Source: Candidatus Bathyarchaeota archaeon
GTDB taxonomy: Archaea > Thermoproteota > Bathyarchaeia > Bathyarchaeales > WUQV01
DNA length: 64,000 nucleotides
Direction of reading: 5' to 3'
Assembly (NCBI GenBank): GCA_021158125.1
Contig: JAGGVF010000007.1
Location: 1 to 64,000, forward strand
Position 1 is the first letter of the stretch; every line of letters begins with the position of its first letter. A program made the translations under genes and the position numbers. This document shows, in pieces, positions 52,409-58,713 of the stretch. Under the pieces are notes generated by a model that saw only the letters and a program-made list of their open reading frames with translations, was not told where the DNA came from and did no database searches.

Positions 52409-52566
52409 CATCACCTAACATCGCACCCTTATTTAAAGAACAGAAGAATGATGAATTCATATGTAAAATTGCTAGGACGCCTAAGGAGATATCGCAGCTA
52501 ATAGAGCTGGGCTTCGAGTATGTATGCGAGCAGGATGGCTTAAAGTTCTTTAGGAAGAGGAAATAA
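52267..52566 (+). CDS. overlapping ORF with conserved-looking C-terminus
   Basis: A 99-codon ORF. Its first half is low-complexity and lies out of frame over the preceding gene. Its last 45 residues look like a real protein (FICKIARTPKEISQLIELGFEYVCEQDG, then KFFRKRK). That part has no ATG, GTG or TTG of its own near residue 50, and a TATA-like TTATTTAAA sits just before it. Either a real overlapping gene, a frameshifted C-terminal part of the gene at 52127, or a gene with a rare start codon. Confidence 0.35.
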   Translation: MQRQNMAKDNTQRKDSRLQMRMRVPICTKTPNNSQLASHHSNTPSKLTSPNIAPLFKEQKNDEFICKIARTPKEISQLIELGFEYVCEQDGLKFFRKRK

Positions 52567-52597: not shown

Positions 52598-52706
52598 TGG
52601 TGCCGGGGGCGGGCTTCGAACCCGCGACCTCCAGATGTCCTATCTCCTAGGCCCCATTCTTCGAGATTATGAGTCTGGCGCCCTCACCAGGCTAGGCTAC
52701 CCCGGC
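52598..52706 (-). tRNA. tRNA-Met (CAT), elongator, with 31-base intron
   Basis: Acceptor GCCGGGG/CCCCGGC, A73 and encoded CCA. The exon anticodon arm is CCAGA-CTCATAA-TCTGG, anticodon CAT. A 31-base intron occupies 52637-52667, inserted after position 37, the canonical archaeal site cut by the bulge-helix-bulge endonuclease. T arm GCGGG-TTCGAAC-CCGC. The sequence is of the elongator, not initiator, type. Confidence 0.92.
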
Positions 52707-55387: not shown

Positions 55388-55425
55388 TGGAGCCCCGGGC
55401 GGGATTTGAACCCGCAACCTGCAGC
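55388..55425 (-). tRNA. 3' half of an interrupted tRNA gene
   Basis: Reads GCTGC (anticodon-stem 3' strand), AGGTT variable loop, T arm GCGGG-TTCAAAT-CCCGC, acceptor CCGGGGC, U73 and CCA. The acceptor strand is the exact complement of GCCCCGG in the 5' half at 58707-58713 on the same strand. Upstream of the stem the sequence runs straight into the stop region of the gene ending at 55436. U73 is seen in archaeal tRNA-Thr and tRNA-Cys. The anticodon cannot be read. Confidence 0.7.
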
Positions 55426-55435
55426 TTTCCTGTCT

Positions 55436-56362
55436 CTAGCTCAGAGTCATCATTCTCTCAAGTCCTTTCTTGATGAATTTTTTGATCAGATCAGCCTCTG
55501 GAAGCTCTTGAGAAGCAGGTTTGAAAACATTTTCTTTGAATCTATTGTAAAATTTGTTAAACGAATCTCTTTCTTTTGCTATATATACAGCACTACTACC
55601 GGATTTTTCGATTACCGCTGTTTCTTTGGCAATCTGCTTAAACATCCTTTGAACAGCCTTCTGTTCAATTATTGAACTTATGTAAAATCCACTGTCTATA
55701 GGTGCTACTTTGTTTTTAATCCAAGGTTCTTCTTCTTTTCGAAGCTTGGCATATAGAAAACGAATCATATCACGCCAATCTTGGAGATGAAGAGCAATTA
55801 AGTTCTCGACTTCACCATATTCAGGAGCTCCTATGGAAAAGTAGATTTCTCTGGGTTTTGCTAATTGTTTTGCCCCTGCTAGTTTCATCTCTTTTGTAAA
55901 GCTTATTGCTACAGTTTCGATCATGTTTTTAGCCCATAAAGCATCAATTAGGTCCTCTACTTCGCCTTTACCATAAGCGTCAATTTCTACATCAAAATAT
56001 GCCCTACGCCAAGAATATTCATTATTGCAGGAAATAAAACCAGCGAGCTTCATCCCATCCAAATCCCATGTACCAGTAACCATTACAATAGATGAGAAGA
56101 GTTCTTCGGTATAGAATCTCTTCTCGAAATATGATTGCAGTTCTTTTATATCTCTATGGAGATCGTAAATCAATACTTGACGCTTTAGGCTTCCTCCGAG
56201 AGCTTCTGATGGAGCTTTCATCCAGATCATTATCTTATCAGGTATAAAGAAACGGCCTTCATAGAAATACTTGATTGACTCATAACAATAATGCACTCGG
56301 GCCAAAGCTTTAGCAAGAGGAGACATCCTTACGGAGGATAGAAGATGGATATAAATTCCCAT
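55436..56362 (-). CDS. unknown 308-aa protein of the tRNA-bounded island
   Basis: Not recognised. A mixed alpha-beta protein (ALARVHYCYESIKYFYEG; IMVTGTWDLDGM-type strand; RRAYFDVEIDAYGKGEVEDLI; LIALHLQDWRDMIRFLYAK) with a Lys-rich C-terminus. Its ATG shares a base with the stop of the upstream PD-(D/E)XK-like gene, so the two form a coupled pair. It ends only 11 bases from the tRNA 3' half. Partner of a nuclease or an accessory mobile-element function is plausible but unproven. Confidence 0.55.
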   Translation of the reverse strand: MGIYIHLLSSVRMSPLAKALARVHYCYESIKYFYEGRFFIPDKIMIWMKAPSEALGGSLKRQVLIYDLHRDIKELQSYFEKRFYTEELFSSIVMVTGTWDLDGMKLAGFISCNNEYSWRRAYFDVEIDAYGKGEVEDLIDALWAKNMIETVAISFTKEMKLAGAKQLAKPREIYFSIGAPEYGEVENLIALHLQDWRDMIRFLYAKLRKEEEPWIKNKVAPIDSGFYISSIIEQKAVQRMFKQIAKETAVIEKSGSSAVYIAKERDSFNKFYNRFKENVFKPASQELPEADLIKKFIKKGLERMMTLS

Positions 56363-56814
56363 TAATTTTCACCTCCAAAATATCTATCAAGGCTATAATA
56401 CATTTTGTCTATCTCACTACTGTAAAATAGAAGAACAGGCATAGATTTACTTCCAGTTCTAATTATGTACGGCTTATTTGTTTCTGGGTTATATAATATG
56501 TGATCTTTTCCTCTCTTGAATATTCTTTTTTCCCAACGGCTTAGCCTCTTTGCAACTATAATAGGAAAATCGACATTTTTCCCAAGAGCAACCAATTGTT
56601 CTACAGTGGCCTGTATTTGATCTACCGCTTTTCTTAGTGTAGAACTCTTGAATTCTATGACGGCATGTTTACAATTTTTGTAGTGAACGTATTTGTCTGC
56701 AATTTTCGTTGATATACGAGTGTTTAGTCCTAATGTGCGAAGATCAAGTTCGTTGTCAAGATCATACTCTTTGTTGGGTTCCACGCCATTCAAAATAGGC
56801 GGTCTCTTCTTCAT
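56362..56814 (-). CDS. PD-(D/E)XK-like small protein of the island
   Basis: A 150-aa protein with Asp40 (KIADKYVHY), then a beta hairpin ending in Glu54-x-Lys56 (AVIEFKSSTLRKAVDQIQ) and a helix with Gln, the layout of the PD-(D/E)XK nuclease core. The C-terminal part (HILYNPETNKPYIIRTG) is unknown. Coupled to the following 308-aa gene by a one-base overlap. Nuclease activity is an inference from motif spacing. Confidence 0.5.
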   Translation of the reverse strand: MKKRPPILNGVEPNKEYDLDNELDLRTLGLNTRISTKIADKYVHYKNCKHAVIEFKSSTLRKAVDQIQATVEQLVALGKNVDFPIIVAKRLSRWEKRIFKRGKDHILYNPETNKPYIIRTGSKSMPVLLFYSSEIDKMYYSLDRYFGGEN

Positions 56815-57051
56815 TAATAGCCCTATATCATAATGTTTGCATATTATTTTATTAACAATTTCTAATGTATCTCAAGAATGTTTCCTGCGAAATTGTAGAG
56901 TTCCCTTTTTTCGTACATTTTTACTTGGATCTATGATTAAACTCTGCGACTTTTATATTTAAAATAGCGGAAGAACTGTTTGCAAGCTATTTATCTTTCC
57001 GAATAGCTTATTTTTATGTGTGTTTAGAGCATATTTGATAAGTTGATAACT

Positions 57052-57128
57052 GCCCCCGTAGCCTAGCTGGTTAAGGCGTCAGCCTTGTAAGCTGAAGATC
57101 CCGGGTTCGAATCCCGGCGGGGGCTCCA
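57052..57128 (+). tRNA. tRNA-Thr (TGT)
   Basis: A 77-base gene with encoded CCA. Acceptor GCCCCCG/CGGGGGC, U73. Anticodon stem TCAGC/GCTGA, loop CTTGTAA, anticodon TGT. T arm CCGGG-TTCGAAT-CCCGG. No intron. It lies inside the island bounded by the split tRNA halves but on the opposite strand, 63 bases before the LAGLIDADG gene. Confidence 0.95.
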
Positions 57129-57190
57129 AACTAGAATTTAAATACAAAATAAACCTTAATATTTTCAAAAACAAACAGAAAAGGATTAAA

Positions 57191-57832
57191 ATGACAGAAA
57201 CAATCCAAAAAGTATCAGAAATTTTAAATCAATTAAAAGTTTGGCATAAAATTCAGGAAAACTACATAATCACTAGGAGAAAACAAATTCGAATACCAGA
57301 AATAAACTCGGAAATAGCTTATCTAGCTGGAGTTATAGCTGGAGACGGAGCAATAACAAAAACCAAAAGAAAAATGGGAGGATATTACTATAGAATACAA
57401 ATAGTCGGACGCAAAAACTACATAGAAAAGCTAATTCCGCTTATTAATCGACTTTTCAATTATAAAATTAAAATCCTTAGAGACAAAAGGAAACAAAACA
57501 CCTACTACATCAACATTCAAACTGCTGCAATCTATGCATACTTCATAATGCTAGGTCTAAAACCAGGAAAGAAACTACGTCCAAACGTGCCATCCATCAT
57601 AGCAGAAAATCCAATTCTGTTCAAGTATTATTTGAAAGGACTAATAGACACAGATGGTCATGTGAAACACACGGGAAGAGTTCAACTGAAACAACGAAGC
57701 AAAACCTACCTACAACAAATAGTCCACCTACTAGAGAAACACATGAAAATTAAAGCTTCACAACCAAGGGTAAACTACACAGAGGGAAAACCATACTACT
57801 ACATAAGATTCAAACTACCCGATGATTTCTAG
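57191..57832 (+). CDS. free-standing LAGLIDADG homing endonuclease
   Basis: A 213-aa protein with two LAGLIDADG helices: YLAGVIAGDGAI near 44-55 and YLKGLIDTDGHV near 147-158, each followed by a beta-rich DNA-contact region. Both acidic catalytic residues (the Asp of GDG and TDG) are kept, so it is probably an active monomeric endonuclease. It is not inside an intein or rRNA intron. Its end overlaps the convergent HEPN gene by 18 bases. Confidence 0.9.
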   Translation: MTETIQKVSEILNQLKVWHKIQENYIITRRKQIRIPEINSEIAYLAGVIAGDGAITKTKRKMGGYYYRIQIVGRKNYIEKLIPLINRLFNYKIKILRDKRKQNTYYINIQTAAIYAYFIMLGLKPGKKLRPNVPSIIAENPILFKYYLKGLIDTDGHVKHTGRVQLKQRSKTYLQQIVHLLEKHMKIKASQPRVNYTEGKPYYYIRFKLPDDF

Positions 57833-58648
57833 CCCCTTTAGGACATCATAGGCGTTGTTTAATGCATCTAAAGCATCATTTTTACCATAAGGAAAGCTTG
57901 ACTGTATATGGTGGATAAGTTTCTCAAGTGAAAGTCTTCTATCAATCAGTTTCTTGAAGAAAGAGGAAGTAAGGAACTTACCTGTCATTTCACGTGAAAA
58001 ATTTGAAAGTCTTTTCCTATGGAAAGCCAGAGTACTCTGCCTAGCGGCCCAATCAACATCAGGTATTTTGTCTAATACCTTGATACGATTCACCATTTCA
58101 TTTAACACTCCTTTAAAATGCTCCGATGTTAACTTTTCAATAAGCTCTTTAGGCATCTTTTGAGCAAATTCTTCTACCATCTTACGAGGAAGGAGGTTTT
58201 CTCCTAAAGAGTACATTTTGCGGTAGTAATCCTTAACAAATGCCACGATATTGGCTGGATGAGCGTACATATGCCTTAACTGATTGAGTTCTCTACATTT
58301 CTTAGCAAGCTCCTTACTCAAAATCTTCTTTTTCTCTCCCAAATCGATCATCTCGCCGAAGTGTAATCCTCTCCCTTTCTCTTGAATCTCCAACCTTTCC
58401 TTTTTGTCCATTTTCTCGTCAAGTCTGAAAAGTAAAGCTATTTCAACAGAAAGTGAAGAATGAAGAACACTATCATCAAACCTTCCATCAATATAATGTA
58501 CGGCAGCGGCATAAAGCTGTTGACGAGATAGGTCATAATGTTCATGAATCTCTTTAATTCTGCTCTTAGACGGGAGACTATTCAAAATATTCTTTATTTC
58601 CTTTCTTCTTTTTGTCCTTTGGCGTCTAATTTCGGTTTTTTCACCCAT
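57815..58648 (-). CDS. HEPN-motif protein of the island
   Basis: A 277-aa, all-alpha protein. Residues 45-135 resemble a HEPN domain: AAAVHYIDGRFDDSVLHSSL, SVEIALLFRL, and the R-x4-H signature RHMYAH at 125-130 in NQLRHMYAHP. HEPN proteins are often RNases in toxin or defence systems. A basic N-terminal tail (RRQRTKRRKE) and an unassigned C-terminal half follow. The ATG lies about 40 bases after the 5' tRNA half. No adjacent nucleotidyltransferase partner is seen. Confidence 0.65.
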   Translation of the reverse strand: MGEKTEIRRQRTKRRKEIKNILNSLPSKSRIKEIHEHYDLSRQQLYAAAVHYIDGRFDDSVLHSSLSVEIALLFRLDEKMDKKERLEIQEKGRGLHFGEMIDLGEKKKILSKELAKKCRELNQLRHMYAHPANIVAFVKDYYRKMYSLGENLLPRKMVEEFAQKMPKELIEKLTSEHFKGVLNEMVNRIKVLDKIPDVDWAARQSTLAFHRKRLSNFSREMTGKFLTSSFFKKLIDRRLSLEKLIHHIQSSFPYGKNDALDALNNAYDVLKGLEIIG

Positions 58649-58686
58649 CTTATCTTAACCACCCTGGCTTGCACAAAAAATAAGCT

Positions 58687-58713
58687 GCTATGACCGGGCT
58701 TAGCTACCGGGGC
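58687..58713 (-). tRNA. 5' half of an interrupted tRNA gene
   Basis: Reads acceptor GCCCCGG, TA, then D arm GCTA-AGCCCGGTCA-TAGC, with all standard positions. After the D arm the sequence is AGCTTATTTTTTGTGC and does not form an anticodon arm matching the distant 3' half. No T arm or acceptor 3' strand follows locally. Its acceptor pairs exactly with the half at 55392-55398. A GCAGCTT here (straddling the D stem) is complementary to AAGCTGC at the 3' half. Confidence 0.7.

Follow-up and report, generated by a model that had tools for sequence, protein, structure and literature searches.

The stretch of DNA analyzed here, referred to as the window, is 64,000 nucleotides (nt) long and corresponds to positions 1 to 64,000 of the forward strand of contig JAGGVF010000007.1 of a Candidatus Bathyarchaeota archaeon (GCA_021158125.1). 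It contains two halves of a tRNA-Thr(CGT)-like gene, which probably represent a disrupted, non-functional second copy of tRNA-Thr(CGT), broken at the anticodon loop either by insertion or through the decay of an earlier integration. The two halves are as follows.

58684..58713, minus strand: 5' half of the tRNA-Thr(CGT)-like gene, with the acceptor strand, the D arm and the first two anticodon-stem bases; 29/30 nt match the intact tRNA-Thr(CGT)
55388..55427, minus strand: 3' half of the same gene, with the last two anticodon-loop bases, the 3' strand of the anticodon stem, the variable loop, the T arm, the acceptor strand, U73 and CCA; 38/40 nt match the intact tRNA-Thr(CGT)

On the minus strand the halves read GCCCCGGTAGCTAAGCCCGGTCATAGCAGC (58713-58684) and AAGCTGCAGGTTGCGGGTTCAAATCCCGCCCGGGGCTCCA (55427-55388). 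The whole draft genome (1.37 Mb in 22 contigs, 98.4% complete) was searched for their counterpart, which is an intact tRNA-Thr(CGT) gene on another contig (G000, C13:54780-54857). The 5' half (30 nt) is 97% identical to positions 1-30 of this gene (E = 2.2e-6), and the 3' half (40 nt) is 95% identical to positions 39-78 (E = 1.9e-10); the likeness of both halves to the genome's own intact tRNA-Thr(CGT) is beyond chance. The CGT type is also the top match for both halves, with the same counts, among the tRNA-Thr sequences gathered from relatives. An earlier note, made from the letters of the window, had placed two same-strand halves at essentially these coordinates, and comparison with the intact gene extended their limits to those given above. 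The halves lie in normal order, with perfectly complementary acceptor strands (GCCCCGG/CCGGGGC), and the 3' half carries U73 and an encoded CCA, all of which that note had described.

Between the halves, 8 nt of the intact gene are missing (GGCCTCGT, three anticodon-stem bases and the anticodon), and the anticodon is absent from both halves. The misjoined anticodon arm reported earlier is indeed present: the D arm of the 5' half is followed by GC-TTA where GCAGC is needed, so that the register of positions 27-31 is wrong. A TTTAAA box is located upstream of the 5' half, at a spacing close to that of other tRNA genes in the genome, which suggests rather than proves that the broken gene was once a working gene.

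Intact tRNA-Thr genes of the CGT, TGT (in the interval between the halves) and GGT types, the last with a 12-nt intron, are all present in the genome, as identified with ARAGORN among the genome's tRNA candidates. In families f2 and f4 the same gene adjoins the intact CGT gene, and G011 and G017 carry an identical (100%) CGT gene; the intact gene is therefore the ancestral copy, and the broken one a derived duplicate. The earlier note had suggested a search of sister genomes for the uninterrupted tRNA; the ancestral CGT gene is uninterrupted, at its other locus, and none of the relatives searched has the broken copy. The orphan 5' half of the window is the only one among the matches listed for 41 genomes, and no similarity was seen by eye between the flanks of the two CGT loci outside the tRNA. 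The broken CGT-like gene is redundant and not needed, and its loss would have been tolerated because the ancestral CGT gene is intact elsewhere. The copy in the window is both interrupted, with its essential 8 nt gone, and redundant with an intact gene, as expected of a disrupted tRNA gene (pseudogene).

The interval between the halves contains four open reading frames and a complete tRNA-Thr gene, as previously described, with the following features.

55428..58683: interval of 3.26 kb, which replaces the 8 nt (GGCCTCGT) of the intact gene
57815..58648, minus strand: HEPN-like protein of 277 amino acids (aa), with R125-x4-H130 invariant in three homologues and weak HEPN fold matches
57191..57832, plus strand: LAGLIDADG homing-endonuclease-like protein, 213 aa (PF14528, E 4e-11, above cut-off)
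57052..57128, plus strand: complete tRNA-Thr(TGT), the only TGT gene detected in the genome
56362..56814, minus strand: possible PD-(D/E)XK nuclease, 150 aa, with invariant E54-x-K56; overlaps the start of the 308-aa gene
55436..56362, minus strand: orphan protein, 308 aa, 33-34% identical to a protein of G014 in the same operon order

These genes are tightly packed, with the start codon of the HEPN-like gene 36 nt from the 5' half and the stop codon of the 308-aa gene 9 nt from the 3' half. No second copy of the interval was found in the genome by the whole-genome search. The gene labels of the earlier note hold to different degrees. The LAGLIDADG assignment, predicted from PF14528 and two related domains above the Pfam cut-off, is secure; the protein also matches 1dq3, 2dch and I-DmoI in the PDB, and its relatives in the order are all weak. 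The HEPN label derives from the R-x4-H motif and weak fold matches (including 2hsb, probability 0.60) to a low-confidence structure model (predicted local distance difference test, pLDDT, 59); among 257 class genomes, homologues consist of two in G053 and a weak relic in G105. The PD-(D/E)XK label is based on the E-x-K motif only, which is conserved in a 42% identical protein of G014, and searches of the family library and the PDB with the 150-aa protein returned no match. The operon of the 150- and 308-aa proteins occurs in one other class genome, G014 (2/257), where it adjoins an IS240-type transposase; the structure model of the 308-aa protein is of low confidence (pLDDT 56), and its fold search was uninformative.

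A search around the copies in G014 and G053 gave no tRNA-Thr fragment, and the cargo therefore looks like ordinary sporadic accessory genes rather than one conserved tRNA-targeting element. No homologue of the cargo was confirmed in viral contigs, nor in plasmids for the two proteins searched there; no similar DNA was found in phages. Seven viral contigs contain the 15-mer GCCCCGGTAGCTAAG, in no case inside a tRNA.

The tRNA-Thr(TGT) gene of the interval does not differ from its counterparts in G001 and G017 (100% identity), and the sequence just upstream of it matches that of G001; it is therefore the host's own type. In G001, a member of the same family, the TGT gene precedes the same coiled-coil/rpiA operon by ~3 kb and has the orientation of the operon, in contrast to the opposite orientation here; the placement in G001 is based on two contigs (C19 and C31) that have exactly 55 nt in common inside the tRNA. 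Several genomes of families f5, f6 and f7 have an intact tRNA-Thr (GGT; TGT in G024) upstream of the coiled-coil gene on the same strand. On the basis of these placements, the region upstream of the coiled-coil/rpiA operon is a recurrent tRNA-Thr site with repeated rearrangement. A 15-nt likeness between the sequence that follows the 5' half (AGCTTATTTTTTGTG, right at the 5' junction, 58686-58672, minus strand) and the TGT promoter (AGCTTATTTTTATGTG, 57005-57020, plus strand) could reflect a promoter motif common to both; each strand of the window has the 11-mer AGCTTATTTTT once. At another locus (L217, G031:C1:1534000-1549000), tRNA-Thr(CGT), tRNA-Thr(TGT), a partial TGT gene and a second near-identical TGT gene are found within 6 kb, and a TIR/nuclease-like gene adjoins them.

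Judging from comparisons among relatives, tRNA-Thr genes are integration hot spots in this order. In G019, G023 and G013 of family f5 (loci L215, G019:C35; L216, G023:C9; L218, G013:C1), a segment of 3.4-4.1 kb lies behind tRNA-Thr(GGT) and has a 28-nt tRNA-Thr 3' fragment at its far end; in G019 there are two of these fragments in tandem. In G019 and G023, a gene for a tyrosine recombinase follows tRNA-Thr(GGT) immediately or nearly so, and the G019 gene matches Pfam Phage_integrase. The segments of these two genomes carry the integrase and a possible replication protein, together with a TIR-domain protein in G023. The window itself contains an integrase relic, the C-terminus of a tyrosine recombinase (52444-52563, plus strand), which adjoins tRNA-Met (52598-52706, minus strand) and is 50-52% identical over 40 aa to the integrases after tRNA-Thr(GGT) in G019 and G023 (E 5e-8).

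We infer that the tRNA-Thr(CGT)-like gene was once whole at this spot, upstream of the coiled-coil/rpiA operon, and that this redundant gene may have served as an insertion target like the tRNA-Thr genes in relatives. A non-conservative insertion at the anticodon loop, for example by capture of DNA at a break, could have removed the 8-nt anticodon segment. Alternatively, a classical integration could have restored the tRNA at one end, with later loss of the restored part. By either route, the halves would have come to enclose the HEPN-like gene, the LAGLIDADG gene, the orphan operon of the 150- and 308-aa proteins and the host's tRNA-Thr(TGT), and both routes leave the same remains. The earlier note had pointed out that classical integration should give a whole tRNA at one end. 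A restored complete tRNA was found at neither end of the interval; the insertion was therefore not conservative, or one end decayed later.

Several observations weigh against disruption by insertion. An empty version of the very site, for which the earlier note had suggested a look in sister genomes, was not found in the relatives searched. No integrase is present among the four open reading frames of the interval; the only integrase sequence is the relic at 52444-52563, outside the interval. Terminal repeats, a target duplication and a shared core were not found at the junctions: as a direct repeat of an attachment core, the junctions have only the 4-nt AGCT in common, and DNA-level terminal inverted repeats are not above the genomic background (p 0.43). 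A simple mobile-element insertion does not explain the presence of the host's own TGT gene in the interval, nor does disruption explain the complementarity of the sequences inside the two junctions (see below).

Decay of a classical integration is the more specific form of the disrupted-gene explanation and, taken by itself, is possible but doubtful. A tyrosine recombinase would have produced one complete and one partial tRNA-Thr at the two ends, after which the complete copy lost its 3' part (on the 58684 side) or its 5' part (on the 55427 side), and the integrase was lost. Such a course is consistent with the integrase-bearing elements at tRNA-Thr in relatives and with the integrase C-terminal relic 2.8 kb away. 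Moreover, the 3' half begins in the anticodon loop, a frequent limit of attachment in archaea (PMC8371274), and attachment at the 5' half would yield a fragment of positions 1-27 as in Caldiarchaeum (PMC3293823). However, the interval has no integrase, and no trace of a decayed tRNA part was found beside either half (local alignment p 0.51 and 0.64).

A selfish insertion that brought in tRNA-Thr(TGT) to make up for the tRNA it broke is very unlikely. The interval does contain a complete tRNA-Thr, and it is the only TGT gene found; however, this gene is of the host type, as its identity to the G001 and G017 genes and the upstream sequence common with G001 indicate, and the broken gene is CGT-like, with CGT intact elsewhere. 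A foreign origin of the TGT gene was likewise considered and is unlikely, as the gene matches that of the host's own family.

There is equally little reason to regard the arrangement as an assembly or binning artefact. The genome is a draft in 22 contigs, and tRNA-Thr(TGT) does break assemblies, as the overlap of C19 and C31 of G001 inside it demonstrates. However, the expected product of a false join within a tRNA is one chimeric but whole tRNA rather than a pair of halves separated by unrelated sequence, and the G+C content is even across the region.

A working tRNA-Thr, with its halves spliced across a 3.3-kb intron or in trans, is extremely unlikely. In its favor, the acceptor strands pair perfectly, and the 30-nt arms just inside the junctions form a duplex of -29.0 kcal/mol, a value reached by 4/1000 shuffles and 9/1000 genomic pairs. 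This test was picked after the fold had been seen, and the pairing fades against genomic pairs with longer arms (32/1000 at 40 nt, 152/1000 at 60 nt); it may be the relic of an intron or due to chance. A check of the junction arms for a bulge-helix-bulge motif gave only one clear 3-nt bulge. The anticodon is in neither half, no splice-point choice examined by eye gives a five-pair anticodon stem and a seven-nucleotide loop with U33, and such a tRNA is unnecessary given intact CGT, TGT and GGT. Thus, of the three options raised in the earlier note, insertion of an element into a tRNA gene has the strongest support, while a very long intron and trans-spliced halves are disfavored by the missing anticodon, by the lack of a five-pair stem with a seven-nucleotide loop and by the intact tRNA-Thr genes. 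It is scarcely credible that the halves are still transcribed and rejoined across the 3.3-kb interval with a third exon supplying the anticodon, which, if true, would be tRNA maturation across an interval holding protein genes and another tRNA gene.

The nearest published parallel found for the disrupted tRNA-Thr(CGT) copy is the tRNA-Thr(GGU) disruption of Caldiarchaeum subterraneum, in which the 5' fragment ends at position 27, a 1.8-kb segment is inserted, and tRNA-Thr was suggested to be a favored target (Sugahara et al. 2012, PMC3293823). Both cases involve a tRNA-Thr gene, a 5' fragment and an inserted segment; in contrast to Caldiarchaeum, where the far end has a complete tRNA-Thr and the insert encodes a putative recombinase, the far end here has only a 3' half, and no recombinase is present. 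Archaeal tyrosine-recombinase integration of the SSV, pNOB8 and pTN3 types (PMC8371274) is similar in its tRNA target and in its limits in the anticodon loop, and tRNA-Thr 3' fragments also terminate related segments in this order, but the interval lacks the restored tRNA, direct repeat and integrase of those systems. The split tRNA genes of Desulfurococcales and others (Chan et al. 2011, PMC3218864) likewise have nearby halves with genes between them, complementary sequence past the junctions and rearrangement at the tRNA; unlike them, the halves here have no anticodon or canonical splice motif and are not needed for the tRNA-Thr set. Prokaryotic tRNA gene fragments (van der Gulik et al. 2023, PMC9897764) are comparable as partial tRNA copies that arise from integration beside an intact gene, whereas the window retains the two halves of a single gene, still in order, on either side of the interval.

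The locus would clearly illustrate, for a Bathyarchaeota-like genome, the opening of a redundant tRNA-Thr gene at its anticodon loop, in an order where tRNA-Thr receives small integrated elements. It agrees with the idea put forward for Caldiarchaeum that split tRNA genes can originate from insertions at tRNA-Thr; the outcome here would be a dead gene because an intact copy existed. The locus further shows that perfect pairing of the acceptors of two halves is insufficient evidence of a split tRNA.

Trp-CCA, Gln-TTG, Gly-TCC and Ser-GGA were expected but are not among the tRNAs found in G000, and may be located at contig ends or have unusual introns. In addition, the tRNA at C13:111270 that was called as 'Ser(tga)' looks, on inspection by eye, like an intron-containing Val-TAC.

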